A DNA stretch of 64,000 bases. Origin: an uncultured Eubacteriales bacterium. GTDB taxonomy: Bacteria > Bacillota > Clostridia > Christensenellales > Aristaeellaceae. Positions within the stretch are counted from its first letter, which is position 1; each line of letters opens with the position of its first letter. A model generated the notes under the pieces. The model did not search any database, was not told where the DNA came from, and worked only from the letters and a program-made list of their open reading frames with translations. A program made the position numbers and the translations under genes. Positions 54,681 through 60,537 of this stretch are shown piece by piece. The DNA lies in contig CADAPM010000005.1 in NCBI GenBank assembly GCA_902789795.1, positions 62,001-126,000 on the forward strand, read 5' to 3'.

Positions 54681-55820
54681 ATGGTCAAGATCAATGTCAT
54701 TTCCGGCTTTCTGGGCGCCGGCAAAACGACCCTTATCAAAAAACTCCTGACCGGCCGTCTCCGCAACGAGAAGGTCGTGCTGCTGGAGAATGAATATGGC
54801 GAGATCGGCGTGGACGGCGCGTTCCTGCAGGACGTGGGCATCACCGTGACTGAGCTGAACGCCGGCTGCATCTGCTGCACCCTGGCCGGAGACTTCCAGG
54901 CCGCCATCGATCAGCTGATCGACACCTACCATCCGGAGCGCATCCTGATCGAGCCCACCGGCGTGGGCAAGCTGTCCGAGATCCTTTCCGCCGTGGAAAA
55001 GGCGAAGCAGCGCCATAACGACATCGAAGTCGGCGGCAGCGCCACCGTGGTGGACGCCGGCAAGTGCCGCATGTACCTGAAAAACTTCGGTGAATTCTTC
55101 ATCGACCAGGTGAAGAGCGCTTCTACCGTCATCTTCAGCCGCACCCAGCTGCTCTCCGCCGAGCGCGTGGAAAAGAGCCGCGCCTTGATTGCCGAGACCC
55201 ATCCGGACGCCCGCATCATCACCACCCCCTGGGACGACATGGAGCCTGACTTCATGCTGGACGTGATCGAGAACGGCAAGCCCATCCAGTTCGAGGCCAT
55301 GGAGGATGAGGACGAGGATGAGCATGAGCATCATCACCACGATCATGACGAGCACGATGAGCATGACCACGAGCATGAGCATCACCACCATGATCACGAT
55401 GACGACGATGACGATGAACACGAGCATGAGCATCATCATCACGAGCATGATGAACATGACCACGATGAGCACGAACACCATCATGATCATGACGAGCATG
55501 AGCATCATCACCACCACCATCATCATGAGGGCGAGCATGATGCCGACGAGGTCTTCCAGAACATCGGCGTGGAGACCGCGCAGCGTTACACCCGTGAGGA
55601 GATCAAAAAGATCCTCGATCAGCTGGGCGACGAAGAGGAATACGGCCGCATCCTGCGCGCCAAGGGCATCCTGCAGGATGAAGAGGGCAAGTGGTTCCAG
55701 TTCGACTATGTGCCCGGCGAGTGCGACTTCCGTGACAGCGGCGCTGACTACACCGGCCGCTTCTGCGTGATCGGCACCCAGATCGACGAAAAGGCGCTGC
55801 GGGAGTTGTTCCACGTATGA
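54681..55820 (+). CDS. CobW/COG0523 GTPase with long His/Asp-rich metal-binding region
   Basis: 379 residues. Walker A SGFLGAGKTTLIKKL, a metal site CICC (at about 63-66), and Walker B-like EPTGVGKLSEI; the base-recognition loop is SRTQ. Residues about 206-290 are almost only His, Asp, Glu and a few Tyr-free spacers, with many HEH and HHHHDHD runs, able to bind tens of zinc, nickel or cobalt ions. A CobW-C domain follows (YGRILRAKGILQDEEGKWFQFDYVPGECD). COG0523 proteins deliver metals to target enzymes. The GTG/ATG start follows AAAGGAGC. Confidence 0.92.
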   Translation: MVKINVISGFLGAGKTTLIKKLLTGRLRNEKVVLLENEYGEIGVDGAFLQDVGITVTELNAGCICCTLAGDFQAAIDQLIDTYHPERILIEPTGVGKLSEILSAVEKAKQRHNDIEVGGSATVVDAGKCRMYLKNFGEFFIDQVKSASTVIFSRTQLLSAERVEKSRALIAETHPDARIITTPWDDMEPDFMLDVIENGKPIQFEAMEDEDEDEHEHHHHDHDEHDEHDHEHEHHHHDHDDDDDDEHEHEHHHHEHDEHDHDEHEHHHDHDEHEHHHHHHHHEGEHDADEVFQNIGVETAQRYTREEIKKILDQLGDEEEYGRILRAKGILQDEEGKWFQFDYVPGECDFRDSGADYTGRFCVIGTQIDEKALRELFHV

Positions 55821-56770
55821 GCGAACAGGAATTCATCCCGGTCTATATGCTGACCGGCTTCCTCGAGAGCGGCAAGACCACCATGGTCAAATCCATGCTG
55901 GCGGACGAGGGCTTCTCCTCCGGGCAGAAGACCCTGATCATCTGCTGCGAGGACGGCGAAAACGAGTACGAACCGGAGTATCTGAAAAAGTACAATGCCG
56001 AGCTGGCCATGTTCGACGAACAGGAGGAGATGACCAGCCTGAAATTGAAGGAGCTGAACCGGAAAGTCCGCCCCGAGCGCGTGATCATCGAGTTCAACTC
56101 CGTGTGGGGCATCGATTTTATCGGCCGCCTGCGGCTGCCGCCCCTCTGGGAGTGGGTGCAGGTCATCACCCTGGCGGATGCCACCACCTTTGAAAACTAC
56201 ATGACCAACATGCGCAACATCATGACCGATCCGATGAAGGAAGCGGATCTGATCCTGGTCAACCGCTGCCAGCCCGATTTCCGCAAGAGCTACTGGCGCA
56301 AGCAGATGCGGGCCATGAACAATTCCGCCACCATCCTGTTCGAGAATCCGGACGGGACCACCGAGGACGGCGTGACGGACGAGGACCTGCCCTACGACGT
56401 GAACGCGCCGGTGATCGAGATCAGCGATGATCACTTCGGCGTCTTCTACCTGGACGCCATGGAGCACCCGGAGCGCTACGACAAGAAGGTCATCCAGGCC
56501 GTCGGCCAGCCCTTCCCCCATGCGCGGCTCTCCAAGGGCTTCTACTTCTTCGGCCGCTACGCCATGACCTGTTGCGCCAACGACATCCAGAAAGCGGGCT
56601 GGATCTGCAAAGGCAGTCAGACCCCCAGCGCCAGCGCCTTTATCAAGCTGACCGCCCGGTGTGAAAAAGCCACCGATCCCGACGGGCAGACCGCGCTCAT
56701 CCTGCGCGAAATGAAGGCCGAAAGCGCTCCCGCGCCCAAGGACAAGTACGTATCTTTCATGAACATCTGA
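55817..56770 (+). CDS. second CobW-type GTPase, without CxCC and His-rich region
   Basis: 317 residues, overlapping the first by four bases. Walker A TGFLESGKTTMVKSML; the ICCEDGENEYEPE segment replaces the CxCC metal site. VIIEFNSVWGIDF and NRCQPD stand at the Walker B and base-recognition places. The C-terminal part (FHARLSKGFYFFG-like, then YAMTCCANDIQKAGWICKG) resembles the OB-like end of related permease-associated GTPases. Paired CobW genes suggest a metal chaperone and a regulatory or target-specific partner; no metal enzyme is adjacent. Confidence 0.82.
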   Translation: MSEQEFIPVYMLTGFLESGKTTMVKSMLADEGFSSGQKTLIICCEDGENEYEPEYLKKYNAELAMFDEQEEMTSLKLKELNRKVRPERVIIEFNSVWGIDFIGRLRLPPLWEWVQVITLADATTFENYMTNMRNIMTDPMKEADLILVNRCQPDFRKSYWRKQMRAMNNSATILFENPDGTTEDGVTDEDLPYDVNAPVIEISDDHFGVFYLDAMEHPERYDKKVIQAVGQPFPHARLSKGFYFFGRYAMTCCANDIQKAGWICKGSQTPSASAFIKLTARCEKATDPDGQTALILREMKAESAPAPKDKYVSFMNI

Positions 56771-57617: not shown

Positions 57618-58043
57618 TTGGTACGCACCGGTAAAGTAGTGAGCGCCGGTCCGGATGCCATCGAAGTGTGCTTTGAGCGTCCCGAGATGTGCGCGCAGTG
57701 CGGCGCGTGCATGGGCCACAAGCCCCATGAAACCACCGTCAAGATCCAGGGAACGGCCGAGATCGGCGATACCGTCGCGGTGGAAATGCCGGACGCCAAT
57801 ATCGTCAAGGTCTCCCTGATCGCCTATATCATTCCGGTGATCGGGCTTCTGCTCGGTCTGATGATCGGCCAGATCGTTCTGAAAAACGACGTCTGGGCCG
57901 CTTTGGCCGGGATCGTGGGTCTGACCGCAGGCATCCTGATCGCCCGCGTGTTCGATAAAAAACTTGGTTCCCAACCGAACTGGAAGCCCAAGCTTCTGGC
58001 TGTACATCACCCAACCGAAGAAATCAAGGAGGAAAAACCATGA
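57618..58043 (+). CDS. RseC/SoxR-reducing-system-like membrane protein
   Basis: 141 residues. TTG at 57618, eight bases after AAAGGG, is preferred over a GTG at 57609. The N-terminal part carries C-x5-C-x2-C-x2-C in CFERPEMCAQCGACMGH, the cysteine cluster of RseC. Two membrane helices follow (about 68-88 and 92-112), then a soluble tail. RseC proteins are linked to the Rnf electron-transfer complex and to iron-sulfur maintenance. It overlaps thioredoxin by four bases, which supports a redox role. No rnf genes are in the window. Confidence 0.85.
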   Translation: MVRTGKVVSAGPDAIEVCFERPEMCAQCGACMGHKPHETTVKIQGTAEIGDTVAVEMPDANIVKVSLIAYIIPVIGLLLGLMIGQIVLKNDVWAALAGIVGLTAGILIARVFDKKLGSQPNWKPKLLAVHHPTEEIKEEKP

Positions 58044-58354
58044 GCGAGATCACTTTGACGTCCGATAACTTTGAAGAAAAGGTCCTGAAGGCGGATAAAC
58101 CCATCCTGGTGGACTTCTGGGCAGTATGGTGCGGCCCCTGCCGCATGATGGCGCCCATCGTCTCCGAGATCGCCGAGGAATATGCCGGCAAAATGTACGT
58201 CGGCAAGCTGAATGTGGATGATGCGGGCGACATCGCTGCCGAATACGGCATCAACTCGATCCCCTGCTTCATTCTGTTTGAAAACGGCGAAGAAAAAGGC
58301 CGCGCCGTGGGTGTGCAGGACAAAGCCCGCCTGCTGGCTGCCCTGAACGCGTAA
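58040..58354 (+). CDS. trxA: thioredoxin
   Basis: 104 residues. The active site WCGPC lies in ILVDFWAVWCGPCRMMAP, with cis-Pro in INSIPCFILF and a C-terminal VQDKARLLAALNA helix. A further Cys follows the cis-Pro (SIPC), a position that is Thr in most thioredoxins and may modify its redox behaviour. It reduces protein disulfides with NADPH via thioredoxin reductase. Coupled to the RseC-like gene. AAGGAGGAAAAACC before the ATG. Confidence 0.96.
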   Translation: MSEITLTSDNFEEKVLKADKPILVDFWAVWCGPCRMMAPIVSEIAEEYAGKMYVGKLNVDDAGDIAAEYGINSIPCFILFENGEEKGRAVGVQDKARLLAALNA

Positions 58355-58401
58355 ATTTTTGTAAAAATTAAAAATTTTTCAAAAAAAATTTGCGAAAACG
58401 C

Positions 58402-58430
58402 TTGCGAAAAAAGCAGAATCGTTCTATAAT
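58402..58430 (+). promoter_or_regulatory. promoter of the structured RNA
   Basis: TTGCGA, 17 bases, TATAAT. Its start point (about 58437) matches the first paired base of the RNA. Confidence 0.85.
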
Positions 58431-58434
58431 AGTC

Positions 58435-58640
58435 CCCGGTTAGACAATCGGGTCTGTGGTTGTAAGCCGATGCCAGTCGCAGGCAAAGCGGTCCACGTAA
58501 GTCGTCCAAAGCGTCGATGAGCATGGTGCGGTTTAGAAGTAAGTCCGACCGGGATTCCCGAGAGAGCAGCGTGAGGGCGCTATAGCGCAGAGCAAAGCTC
58601 CTGTCGGCGAGTGTGGGGTCAAAGACCAGGTCAGCCGGTT
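58435..58640 (+). ncRNA. structured noncoding RNA of about 205 nt, family not certain
   Basis: The 5' CCGGTTAGAC and the 3' GTCAGCCGG (58630-58638) close a long-range stem. Inside lie hairpins CGGG-ATT-CCCG, GCGCTATAGCGC, GGTC-AAA-GACC (58616-58626) and a GCC...GGC stem near 58475. There is no open frame of note, a dedicated near-consensus promoter before it and an AT-rich run after it. The pattern is that of a large conserved RNA. It is not tmRNA, RNase P or SRP RNA by the motifs I know. The raiA/ARRPOF type and 6S RNA are the first candidates to test. Confidence 0.7.
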
Positions 58641-58682
58641 ATCACCAAATTATTTATTTTTATTCAGGGGGTCTAGTTTACC

Positions 58683-58958
58683 ATGTATCAGGACAAGACG
58701 CTGGTGTGCCGTGACTGCGGTAAGGAATTTGTGTTCACCGCTGGTGAGCAGGAATTCTATGCTGAAAAGGGTTTCCAGAATGAGCCGTCCCGTTGCCGTG
58801 AGTGCCGCATCGCTAAGAAAACTCAGCGTGGCGGTCCCCGCGTGATGTATGACGCAATCTGCGCTCAGTGCGGCGCGCCCACCAAGGTGCCCTTCGAGCC
58901 CAAGGACGATCGTCCGGTGTACTGCAGCGAATGCTACGCGAACATGCAGCGTCGGTAA
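58683..58958 (+). CDS. small zinc-ribbon protein
   Basis: 91 residues. Two C-x2-C pairs (CRDCGKEF and CRECRIAKK) in the first half, like the zf-Tbcl / probable zinc-binding domain family, and two more pairs (CAQCGAPT and CSECYANM) in the second, so two zinc ribbons. The spacing between is FTAGEQEFYAEKGFQNEPSR, the family core. The function is unknown; such proteins are small, cytoplasmic and often stress-linked. A GGGGG run lies about 12 bases before the ATG. It follows the structured RNA directly and may be read from the same promoter. Confidence 0.88.
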   Translation: MYQDKTLVCRDCGKEFVFTAGEQEFYAEKGFQNEPSRCRECRIAKKTQRGGPRVMYDAICAQCGAPTKVPFEPKDDRPVYCSECYANMQRR

Positions 58959-58985
58959 TTCATCAGTAAAACCTGACAACAACGA

Positions 58986-59013
58986 GGGAGGTGCTAATAG
59001 CACCTCCCTTTTT
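58986..59013. terminator. bidirectional terminator after the zinc-ribbon gene
   Basis: GGGAGGTGCT, loop AAT, AGCACCTCCC, then T5. Convergent with the DUF4340 gene. Confidence 0.92.
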
Positions 59014-59031
59014 ACTGCGCTTTTTTCCGCC

Positions 59032-60537
59032 TTATGGGCAGGCCAGCAGGGCGTCCGCCCACGCCTGGGGCACAGTATAAACCGAAGTCCCGTCCACAGT
59101 CAGGTACAGCCGCCCCATCGCGCCGGAGTAGAGCGCTGTCGTGATGGTGCCGGTGCCGTCCTCCGGAGTCACGCTGACCGTGACCACCGGCACATCCTCG
59201 CTGGACGGATGCCATACGGCCCCCTCCTCGGACGATTCAGTCCGCGTCAAGGCGCTGTCCAGCGCCATCAGCTGCGCGTAGTATTCGCTGAAAGCGTAGG
59301 CATCCACATCCTGGCCGTTCTTTCTGACGCGCATCTCATACACGATATTCCCGTATTCGTCCGTTTCAAACTGGTTGTTGGGCAGCACGCGCTCCACGTA
59401 GCGAATCTGGTATTTCTTCTCCGTTCCCTCCGATACGACCGTCACTTCCGACAGGTTGTTCTGCTCATAGACGAAGGGGTTCGGGGATGCATAATTCTGC
59501 CAACTGAGCCTCCTGACCGCGCTGAAGGTCACGGTCGTGCCCACCAGGATGTCTCCATTATAAATATAGTAGTCCGCCGTCTCCGAATACGCCCGTCCGA
59601 GGAGGATCGTGATATTGCTGGCAGGGATCTCGAAGGTCTGGTCCCTGCCCTCCTCGTCCGGCACCGTCAGCACAGAGGGCGCAAAGTCCAGCGACAGACG
59701 CCGCATTGCCCCTTCCAGGCGCAGCTTGTGCCGGTTCCGTTCCGTATCTTCCCCCGCCCAGGTCGCGAATCGCAGCTTTTCAAGGCTCGACAGCAGGCTT
59801 TCCACCTTGTCCGCGGCCACCGGATAACGGAACGGCGCGCTCAGCATCCAGCCCGCGGATGTCCGTTCGATAGCGAACTCCGTTTTGCCTTCTTCGTCCT
59901 CCACGGCGATCCGGTCGATCAGCTCCGCGTCGATCGCCAGGGCCGGCACGGGGTGCAGGGTCGTGAACTGCACGTTCAAGGCATCCATCACGTCCGAGGT
60001 CACCGTATATACGTTCCCCCGGCCGCTGACGGCGGCGTAGTAGCGGATCTCGTCCATCGGCGCGGCGTTGCCCAGGAGGATCGTGTACTCCTCCCCCGTC
60101 GTCAGCGCCACATCCACCGAGCAGGTGGGCTGCTCAAGTCCGTAATCGCTCATTTCAATCCGGCCCGCATGGCTTTTCCCCGACTCGGCGACCAGTTCTT
60201 CCGCGGTCAGATGGCTCGCGTTATACAAGAGCACCTGCACTGTCTGCTCCCGGAGCGGATAATCGGGATCGTTTTCCAATGCGGCTGTGCCTTCGTTGAC
60301 CACGAGGGTATAGGCCTCGGTCCTGCTCGGGTGCACCGTGATCCGGCTGATCAGGCTCTCGTCATGATCCAGGAGGGTCAGGGACGCAGCCTGATCCTCG
60401 TCCGGCGGTTCCACCGTCTGGGCCGGGCGCAGCAGGAAATACAGCGCCGCGCCGACGGCGATGAGCAGGGCCAGCAGGATCAACAGCAGGGCCGGTCTGC
60501 AAAGGCCGGTCTTCTTTTTCGTTCTGACCGGCTGCAT
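59032..60537 (-). CDS. DUF4340 domain membrane protein
   Basis: 501 residues. One N-terminal membrane helix (about 16-36, LLLILLALLIAVGAALYFLL) and a large outside part of repeated DUF4340 beta units (ISRITVHPSRTEAYTLVVNEG, ELIDRIAVEDEEGKTEFAIERTSAGWMLSAPFRYPVAADKVESLLSSL). The family is known beside GldG-type ABC subunits in Bacteroidota and Clostridia and has no proven activity. The start overlaps the GldG-like stop by one base, so the four genes up to 63672 form one operon. Confidence 0.87.
   Translation of the reverse strand: MQPVRTKKKTGLCRPALLLILLALLIAVGAALYFLLRPAQTVEPPDEDQAASLTLLDHDESLISRITVHPSRTEAYTLVVNEGTAALENDPDYPLREQTVQVLLYNASHLTAEELVAESGKSHAGRIEMSDYGLEQPTCSVDVALTTGEEYTILLGNAAPMDEIRYYAAVSGRGNVYTVTSDVMDALNVQFTTLHPVPALAIDAELIDRIAVEDEEGKTEFAIERTSAGWMLSAPFRYPVAADKVESLLSSLEKLRFATWAGEDTERNRHKLRLEGAMRRLSLDFAPSVLTVPDEEGRDQTFEIPASNITILLGRAYSETADYYIYNGDILVGTTVTFSAVRRLSWQNYASPNPFVYEQNNLSEVTVVSEGTEKKYQIRYVERVLPNNQFETDEYGNIVYEMRVRKNGQDVDAYAFSEYYAQLMALDSALTRTESSEEGAVWHPSSEDVPVVTVSVTPEDGTGTITTALYSGAMGRLYLTVDGTSVYTVPQAWADALLACP

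Follow-up and report, generated by a model that had tools for sequence, protein, structure and literature searches.

In the window, which is the whole analysed stretch of 64,000 nucleotides from an uncultured Eubacteriales bacterium, a full-length raiA RNA stands directly upstream of a gene for a small protein with two treble-clef zinc domains, and the same tight pairing, almost free of terminator-like sites between the RNA and the gene, recurs in related genomes. The reading that we favour, with a probability of roughly 0.6, is that one transcript gives rise to both a raiA RNA acting in trans and the small zinc protein, and that the two probably act in the same growth-transition pathway. The RNA family itself is known; the new part is its conserved, terminator-poor link to the zinc protein gene.

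The Rfam model RF03072 matched the RNA over model positions 1-209 with 176.4 bits (gathering score 101.3; E 9.4e-45), this being the sole at-threshold Rfam match in the window. Thus, the RNA is an ordinary member of the known raiA family (ModT in C. difficile), and one copy was found in the source genome, an assembly of 2.59 Mb in 64 contigs with 88% completeness. The first-pass annotation had described an RNA of about 205 nt, closed by a long-range stem and devoid of a coding frame, preceded by TTGCGA-17-TATAAT and situated between a thioredoxin gene and a gene for a two-ribbon zinc protein, and it had named raiA first among the candidate families. All of this was borne out (Table 1): the RNA matches the family model at full length and is closed by the P1 stem, and none of the window's plus-strand ORFs of at least 60 aa overlaps it. 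Of the two roles proposed at that time, a member of a large noncoding RNA family or a cis-regulator of the zinc gene, the former is supported by the RF03072 match, and the latter is still relevant given the conserved tight leader position. The Rfam type label of RF03072 is that of a cis-regulatory riboswitch. The phage records searched contained no match to raiA RNA.

Table 1. Features of the locus, and leaders of the lower-scoring zinc gene type in other loci (positions there are those of the locus named).
Feature	Position	Strand	Basis or remark
Two CobW-family GTPase genes	54681-56767	+	some 2-4 kb before the zinc gene
Thioredoxin gene	58040-58354		upstream of the raiA RNA
Promoter-like site, sigma-70-type, TTGCGA-17-TATAAT	58402-58430	+	10/12 consensus matches
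raiA RNA (RF03072), full length, 201 nt, P1-closed	58443-58643	+	176.4 bits; covariation
A/T-rich gap, 39 nt, without terminator-like site	58644-58682	+	sequence and terminator scan
Shine-Dalgarno-like AGGGGG in the gap	58666-58671	+	sequence
Zinc protein gene, 91 aa, two treble-clef domains (PF13451 + PF23477 / TIGR04272)	58683-58958	+	Pfam
G+C-rich 11-bp hairpin, then TTTT, 3' of the zinc gene; possible terminator	58985-59013	+	sequence reading
Lower-scoring-type leader, L224	670-803	+
Lower-scoring-type leader, L226	334-471	-
Lower-scoring-type leader, L228	676-803	+
Lower-scoring-type leader, L270	361-485	-
Lower-scoring-type leader, L271	516-635	+
Lower-scoring-type leader, L272	486-610	+
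Lower-scoring-type leaders, L231, L266, L274, L276

If the stretch were merely intergenic DNA that folds by accident, with no real RNA behind it, a single sequence would be expected to fold no better than its shuffled versions, and this is what was observed: there was no extra stability (z -0.81 for the RNA alone and +0.38 when flanks were added). Hence the raiA structure here rests on comparison rather than on energy. The alignment comprised 44 raiA RNAs preceding zinc genes, taken from the 55 linked RNAs of 225 nt or shorter; outside it were 10 longer RNAs, including that of genome G040, and 11 more, including the low-scoring one of G034. Scored on the Rfam structure (56 of its 57 pairs), the alignment yielded a covariation of 0.280 vs 0.115 (sd 0.006) after shuffling, a value reached by none of the 500 shuffles, while slid controls gave at most 0.112. 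The covariation that the first-pass annotation had proposed to look for in homologues is thus present, and together with the E-value of the family match it refutes an accidental fold, the probability of which is practically negligible.

The same tendency was seen in the individual counts. The share of paired cells was 77.0% vs 67.2% in shuffles, 289 cells had changes on both sides vs 115.4, and 29 pairs changed on both sides vs 24.9, the last value being matched by 3 of the 500 shuffles. Columns 34-40 with 89-95 were paired in 93.5% of cells, three of the seven pairs having changes on both sides; in our reading these columns are pk-1, linking the P3 hairpin loop to the downstream pk-loop, which the cryo-EM structure of the raiA RNA shows as seven consecutive pairs (PMC11751092). 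The P3 stem GCC/GGC is present in all 44 linked RNAs, and many core columns are invariant. Five helices, mostly in the variable outer part, were paired in just 36-65% of cells, which was tentatively taken as alignment noise.

The linkage to the zinc gene was assessed in three overlapping samples of 60 genomes of relatives, 200 of the order and 291 of the class, where raiA was found in 37, 68 and 57 genomes, respectively. The absence of raiA in the others is soft, since in samples of more than 40 genomes the filters were stricter and only some candidates per genome were scored. Pooled, the samples gave 143 distinct raiA-bearing genomes with matches at E <= 0.001, G040 alone lying under the family cut-off. 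A gene with both zinc domains (zf_Tbcl and zf_Tbcl_2) directly follows the RNA on the same strand in 79 of them, at a distance of 28-50 nt in 68 genomes and of 113-120 nt in 11, all of the latter belonging to family f46. For the unlinked genomes (n = 64), a two-domain copy was found only elsewhere in 18 and not found in 46, one of which (G001) has its sequence broken off 6 nt past the RNA. These counts cover two-domain matches only (about 114 bits and more) in linkage-relevant genomes, single-domain ones being excluded.

By hand count, 14 of the 26 raiA-bearing families show linkage, ten belonging to the order of the window and four to the rest of the class; f2, f6, f22, f25 and f75, which are among these 14, are represented by one genome each, as is f62. 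The linked RNAs include low-scoring ones (G034, 108.5 bits; G040, 96.4 bits, below the cut-off). In named genomes, among them an uncultured Christensenella, Candidatus Onthenecus intestinigallinarum and Candidatus Aphodomonas merdavium, RF03072 scored above the cut-off 29-62 nt 5' of the zinc gene in all 20 loci tested, which had been chosen as raiA-like in appearance from about 27 such among 76 listed.

In most linked loci the RNA and the zinc gene appear to lie on one transcript that starts at the promoter of the RNA. The promoter-like site of the window ends 12 nt 5' of the RNA, and the region 58340-59060 contains two such sites vs 0.5 (sd 0.7) in shuffles. Among 104 loci drawn from the 143 genomes (65 of the 79 linked and 39 of the 64 others), 95 have a -10-like hexamer no more than 45 nt from the RNA, vs a mean of 18.8 (maximum 29) in shuffles preserving base composition only. 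In the same set, which excludes L002 because of its broken contig and has among the unlinked loci L027, with only 6 nt of sequence after the RNA, a terminator-like site lies within 130 nt of the RNA 3' end in 2 of 65 linked vs 18 of 39 unlinked loci (Fisher p 1e-7, relatedness not corrected for). Both linked sites are weak and extend into the coding start. The terminator rule was our own, a hairpin of -6 kcal/mol or better followed by a T-run, and it misses unlinked RNAs whose P1 runs into T. The gaps of linked loci contain a Shine-Dalgarno-like sequence, often GGGGG. Since terminator-like sites are nearly absent and such a sequence lies in the gap, the promoter of the RNA should also serve the zinc gene. 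As for the stem following the zinc gene of the window, the scan reported it on the minus strand only, and gave one site in the whole region vs a shuffle mean of 1.0.

The raiA RNA has been published as flanked by comFC upstream in 74% and by the raiA/hpf gene downstream in 66% of cases (Soares 2024, quoted in PMC11706538). Within flanks of mostly 1.5 kb, some being shorter, comFC preceded the RNA in 13 linked loci and hpf lay past the zinc gene in 12 (the two together in 6, neither one in 46; n = 65), and for the unlinked loci the numbers were 18 with comFC and 20 with hpf (both in 9, neither in 10; n = 39). Locus L029 has the whole order comFC - RNA - zinc gene - hpf - secA, and from these neighbours it follows that the zinc gene stands between the RNA and hpf. 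The pair also persists where the classical neighbours comFC and hpf are not seen in the flank. Pfam confirmed the search seeds for hpf and secA; the comFC seed had a sub-threshold phosphoribosyltransferase match only, one relative having a double zinc ribbon and a phosphoribosyltransferase domain above the cut-off. In the source genome, contig C3 has the hpf match and contig C5 the raiA RNA. Upstream of the zinc gene of the window there are two genes of CobW-family GTPases, the first with a long His-rich stretch in its product; these and the zinc gene possibly form a metal-handling neighbourhood.

The short spacing also fits a different arrangement. In this clade, the RNA could have turned into a cis-regulatory leader or could be one in addition, its fold or ligand state controlling the translation or decay of the zinc mRNA. 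A leader-like distance, 28-50 nt, separates the RNA and the gene in 68 of the 79 linked genomes, and this and the near absence of terminator-like sites after linked RNAs (2/65) agree with such a role; on the other hand, the near absence also means that no terminator-like site is available there as an expression platform. CCTCC, a complement of the Shine-Dalgarno sequence, occurs in 16 of 65 linked raiA leaders, above the 5.9 (maximum 13) of shuffles preserving base composition only. Its frequency in unlinked raiA RNAs is 9 of 39 (2.8 in shuffles), and it occupies the same place in both groups, about 77% along the RNA. Thus, CCTCC seems to belong to the raiA core and gives no sign of a platform dedicated to the zinc gene, and a ribosome-binding-site complement special to linked raiA was rejected. 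In six of seven f46 loci, the longer stretch between the RNA and the gene (113-120 nt) contains a complement of its own, ATCCC, which faces GGGAT in the ribosome-binding site, as if regulation there were separate from raiA. By eye, a GAAC/GTTC hairpin was noted in the same stretch of the f46 loci L041, L042, L043, L045, L047, L049 and L056.

Zinc genes without raiA show what other leaders may look like, and several copies have structured-looking ones behind a -10-like hexamer, which again agrees with control in cis. One case is a lower-scoring type of the two-domain gene, represented by 26 leaders (the window's family providing 24 and family f17 two) with a -10-like hexamer and a length of 112-154 nt, the ATG included. 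CCTCC is present in 18 of the 26, vs 3.6 (maximum 9) in shuffles. It pairs with the ribosome-binding site in the minimum-energy fold of four of the seven leaders folded and not in the other three, and the consensus of six leaders contains the same pairing, with invariant pairs and without covariation. An RNA model (R1) built from these six matched seven places in 60 genomes, the six training leaders and a new one (G029), all directly before a zinc gene. This leader is a candidate for a new cis-regulatory RNA.

Several further elements were noted by eye 5' of zinc genes. TRNA-like elements stand just before the gene in L080, L090, L135, L160, L166, L185 and L194; that of L080 scored 33.2 bits with the Rfam tRNA model, the sole match in an Rfam search of raiA-less zinc-gene leaders. 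ARAGORN called no tRNA gene at these elements, so they were rejected as such, and it found tRNA genes in 4 of 14 loci (tRNA-Gly in three, tRNA-Leu in one). A small hairpin GCG..CAGC-loop-GCTG..CGC recurs in L145, L149, L167, L170, L173, L176, L192 and L196. In L068, L070 and L076, the 330 nt upstream of the gene contain a long, similar and structured-looking sequence; it had no Rfam match, and no raiA was found in those genomes. The raiA-less leaders hint that leader-based control of the zinc protein is common, raiA RNA perhaps being one of several ways to achieve it.

For the raiA family, complementation in trans has been reported, and its authors exclude a riboswitch function in cis (PMC11706538). 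With the core position of CCTCC in unlinked RNAs, no platform special to linked RNAs being seen, and the separate complement of f46, this makes a cis-acting leader unlikely.

A further possibility is that the zinc gene is simply kept behind a strong, growth-regulated RNA promoter, with no joint function of the two products. The gene is indeed found elsewhere behind other genes, such as that of a sigma-70-family sigma factor in L173, and behind the other leaders described above; moreover, 46 raiA-bearing genomes have no two-domain zinc gene that we found. In the class sample, the zinc protein profile, single-domain relatives included, matched 163 of 291 genomes vs the 57 with raiA. There is also G375 (L238:195-371, plus strand), where the promoter-like site and the zinc gene are kept and the RNA has decayed to a raiA-like remnant of only 101 nt, directly before the gene, with the 5' part and the TGTGGGG..CAGGTC end retained and the middle gone. 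Its pairwise alignment score was 80.6 vs at most 22.1 in the control when the promoter and the gene start were included, and 60.0 vs at most 26.2 in 500 shuffles preserving base composition only for the RNA part alone; the Rfam search gave no match for it at E <= 0.1. Thus, the zinc gene does not need an intact raiA RNA. Against promoter sharing stand the occurrence of the pair in 14 families and the 46 of 65 linked loci that have neither comFC nor hpf in the flank, and we regard it as quite improbable.

The zinc protein of the window matches PF13451 with 89.9 bits (cut-off 24) and PF23477 with 70.9 bits (cut-off 27), and its cysteines C9, C12, C38, C41, C60, C63, C81 and C84 are invariant in 29 relatives. 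The AlphaFold2 model has a mean pLDDT of 89.1 and a pTM of 0.46. A fold search with this model against solved structures returned 265 matches at E <= 10 and none at E <= 0.001, so RNA binding by the protein is unsupported. A sequence search of solved structures was uninformative, the best match (E 0.0018) being to eukaryotic zinc fingers and LIM proteins. No paper on the function of the protein was found by its family names (zf_Tbcl, CxxC-x17-CxxC). A stronger version of the functional tie, which we consider tentative and rather doubtful, would make the protein a dedicated partner of raiA RNA: in the 14 families of one class, a single transcript would encode both parts of an RNA-protein particle, originally within the cluster comFC - raiA RNA - zinc gene - hpf - secA, the protein binding or maturing the RNA and setting its level when growth slows.

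We therefore return to a trans-acting RNA sharing a transcript with the zinc gene, which is favoured because of the reported complementation in trans, the fact that no platform specific to linked RNAs was seen, the own complement of the f46 gaps and the remnant in G375. Transcription would start at the RNA's own promoter, just a few bases 5' of P1, and, as no terminator follows the RNA, would read through into the zinc gene and probably stop at the hairpin downstream. The mature trans-acting RNA would arise by processing near the edge of P1, while the full-length transcript would be the mRNA of the zinc protein. The RNA and the protein would hence be made together, and the protein would probably belong to the growth-transition pathway of the RNA, perhaps binding it.

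Reports of raiA RNA cover more than 2,500 species, its abundance in C. difficile rivals that of ribosomal RNA (PMC11706538), and its structure has been solved (PMC11751092). Its gene neighbourhood has been judged a poor guide (PMC11706538), and the word zinc does not occur in that paper. In the literature searched, no paper joining raiA RNA with the zinc gene was found, and earlier synteny tables (Soares 2024, Weinberg 2017) may already list this gene. With the zinc gene within 50 nt in most linked genomes, across 14 families, the link offers a direct lead to a partner or target of raiA RNA.

Compared with known systems, the protein agrees with the zf_Tbcl / zf_Tbcl_2 family (PF13451, PF23477; TIGR04272, CxxC-x17-CxxC), both domains being well above the cut-off, although in many genomes with relatives of the protein no raiA RNA was found. 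A large structured bacterial RNA forming a particle with a protein is exemplified by OLE RNA (PMC11706538). Setting OLE RNA and OapA beside raiA RNA and the zinc protein gives a working analogy only. The two pairs consist of different RNA and protein families. With raiA/ModT (RF03072), the RNA described here shares the sequence, the length, the closure by P1, the P3 hairpin with the loop-loop pseudoknot, and a promoter-like site of its own; the features of the family also include pk-2 (two pairs) and a non-canonical core. It differs from the published raiA/ModT neighbourhood in that the next gene, no more than 50 nt away, encodes a two-treble-clef zinc protein and seems to share the transcript, with no terminator-like site in between.
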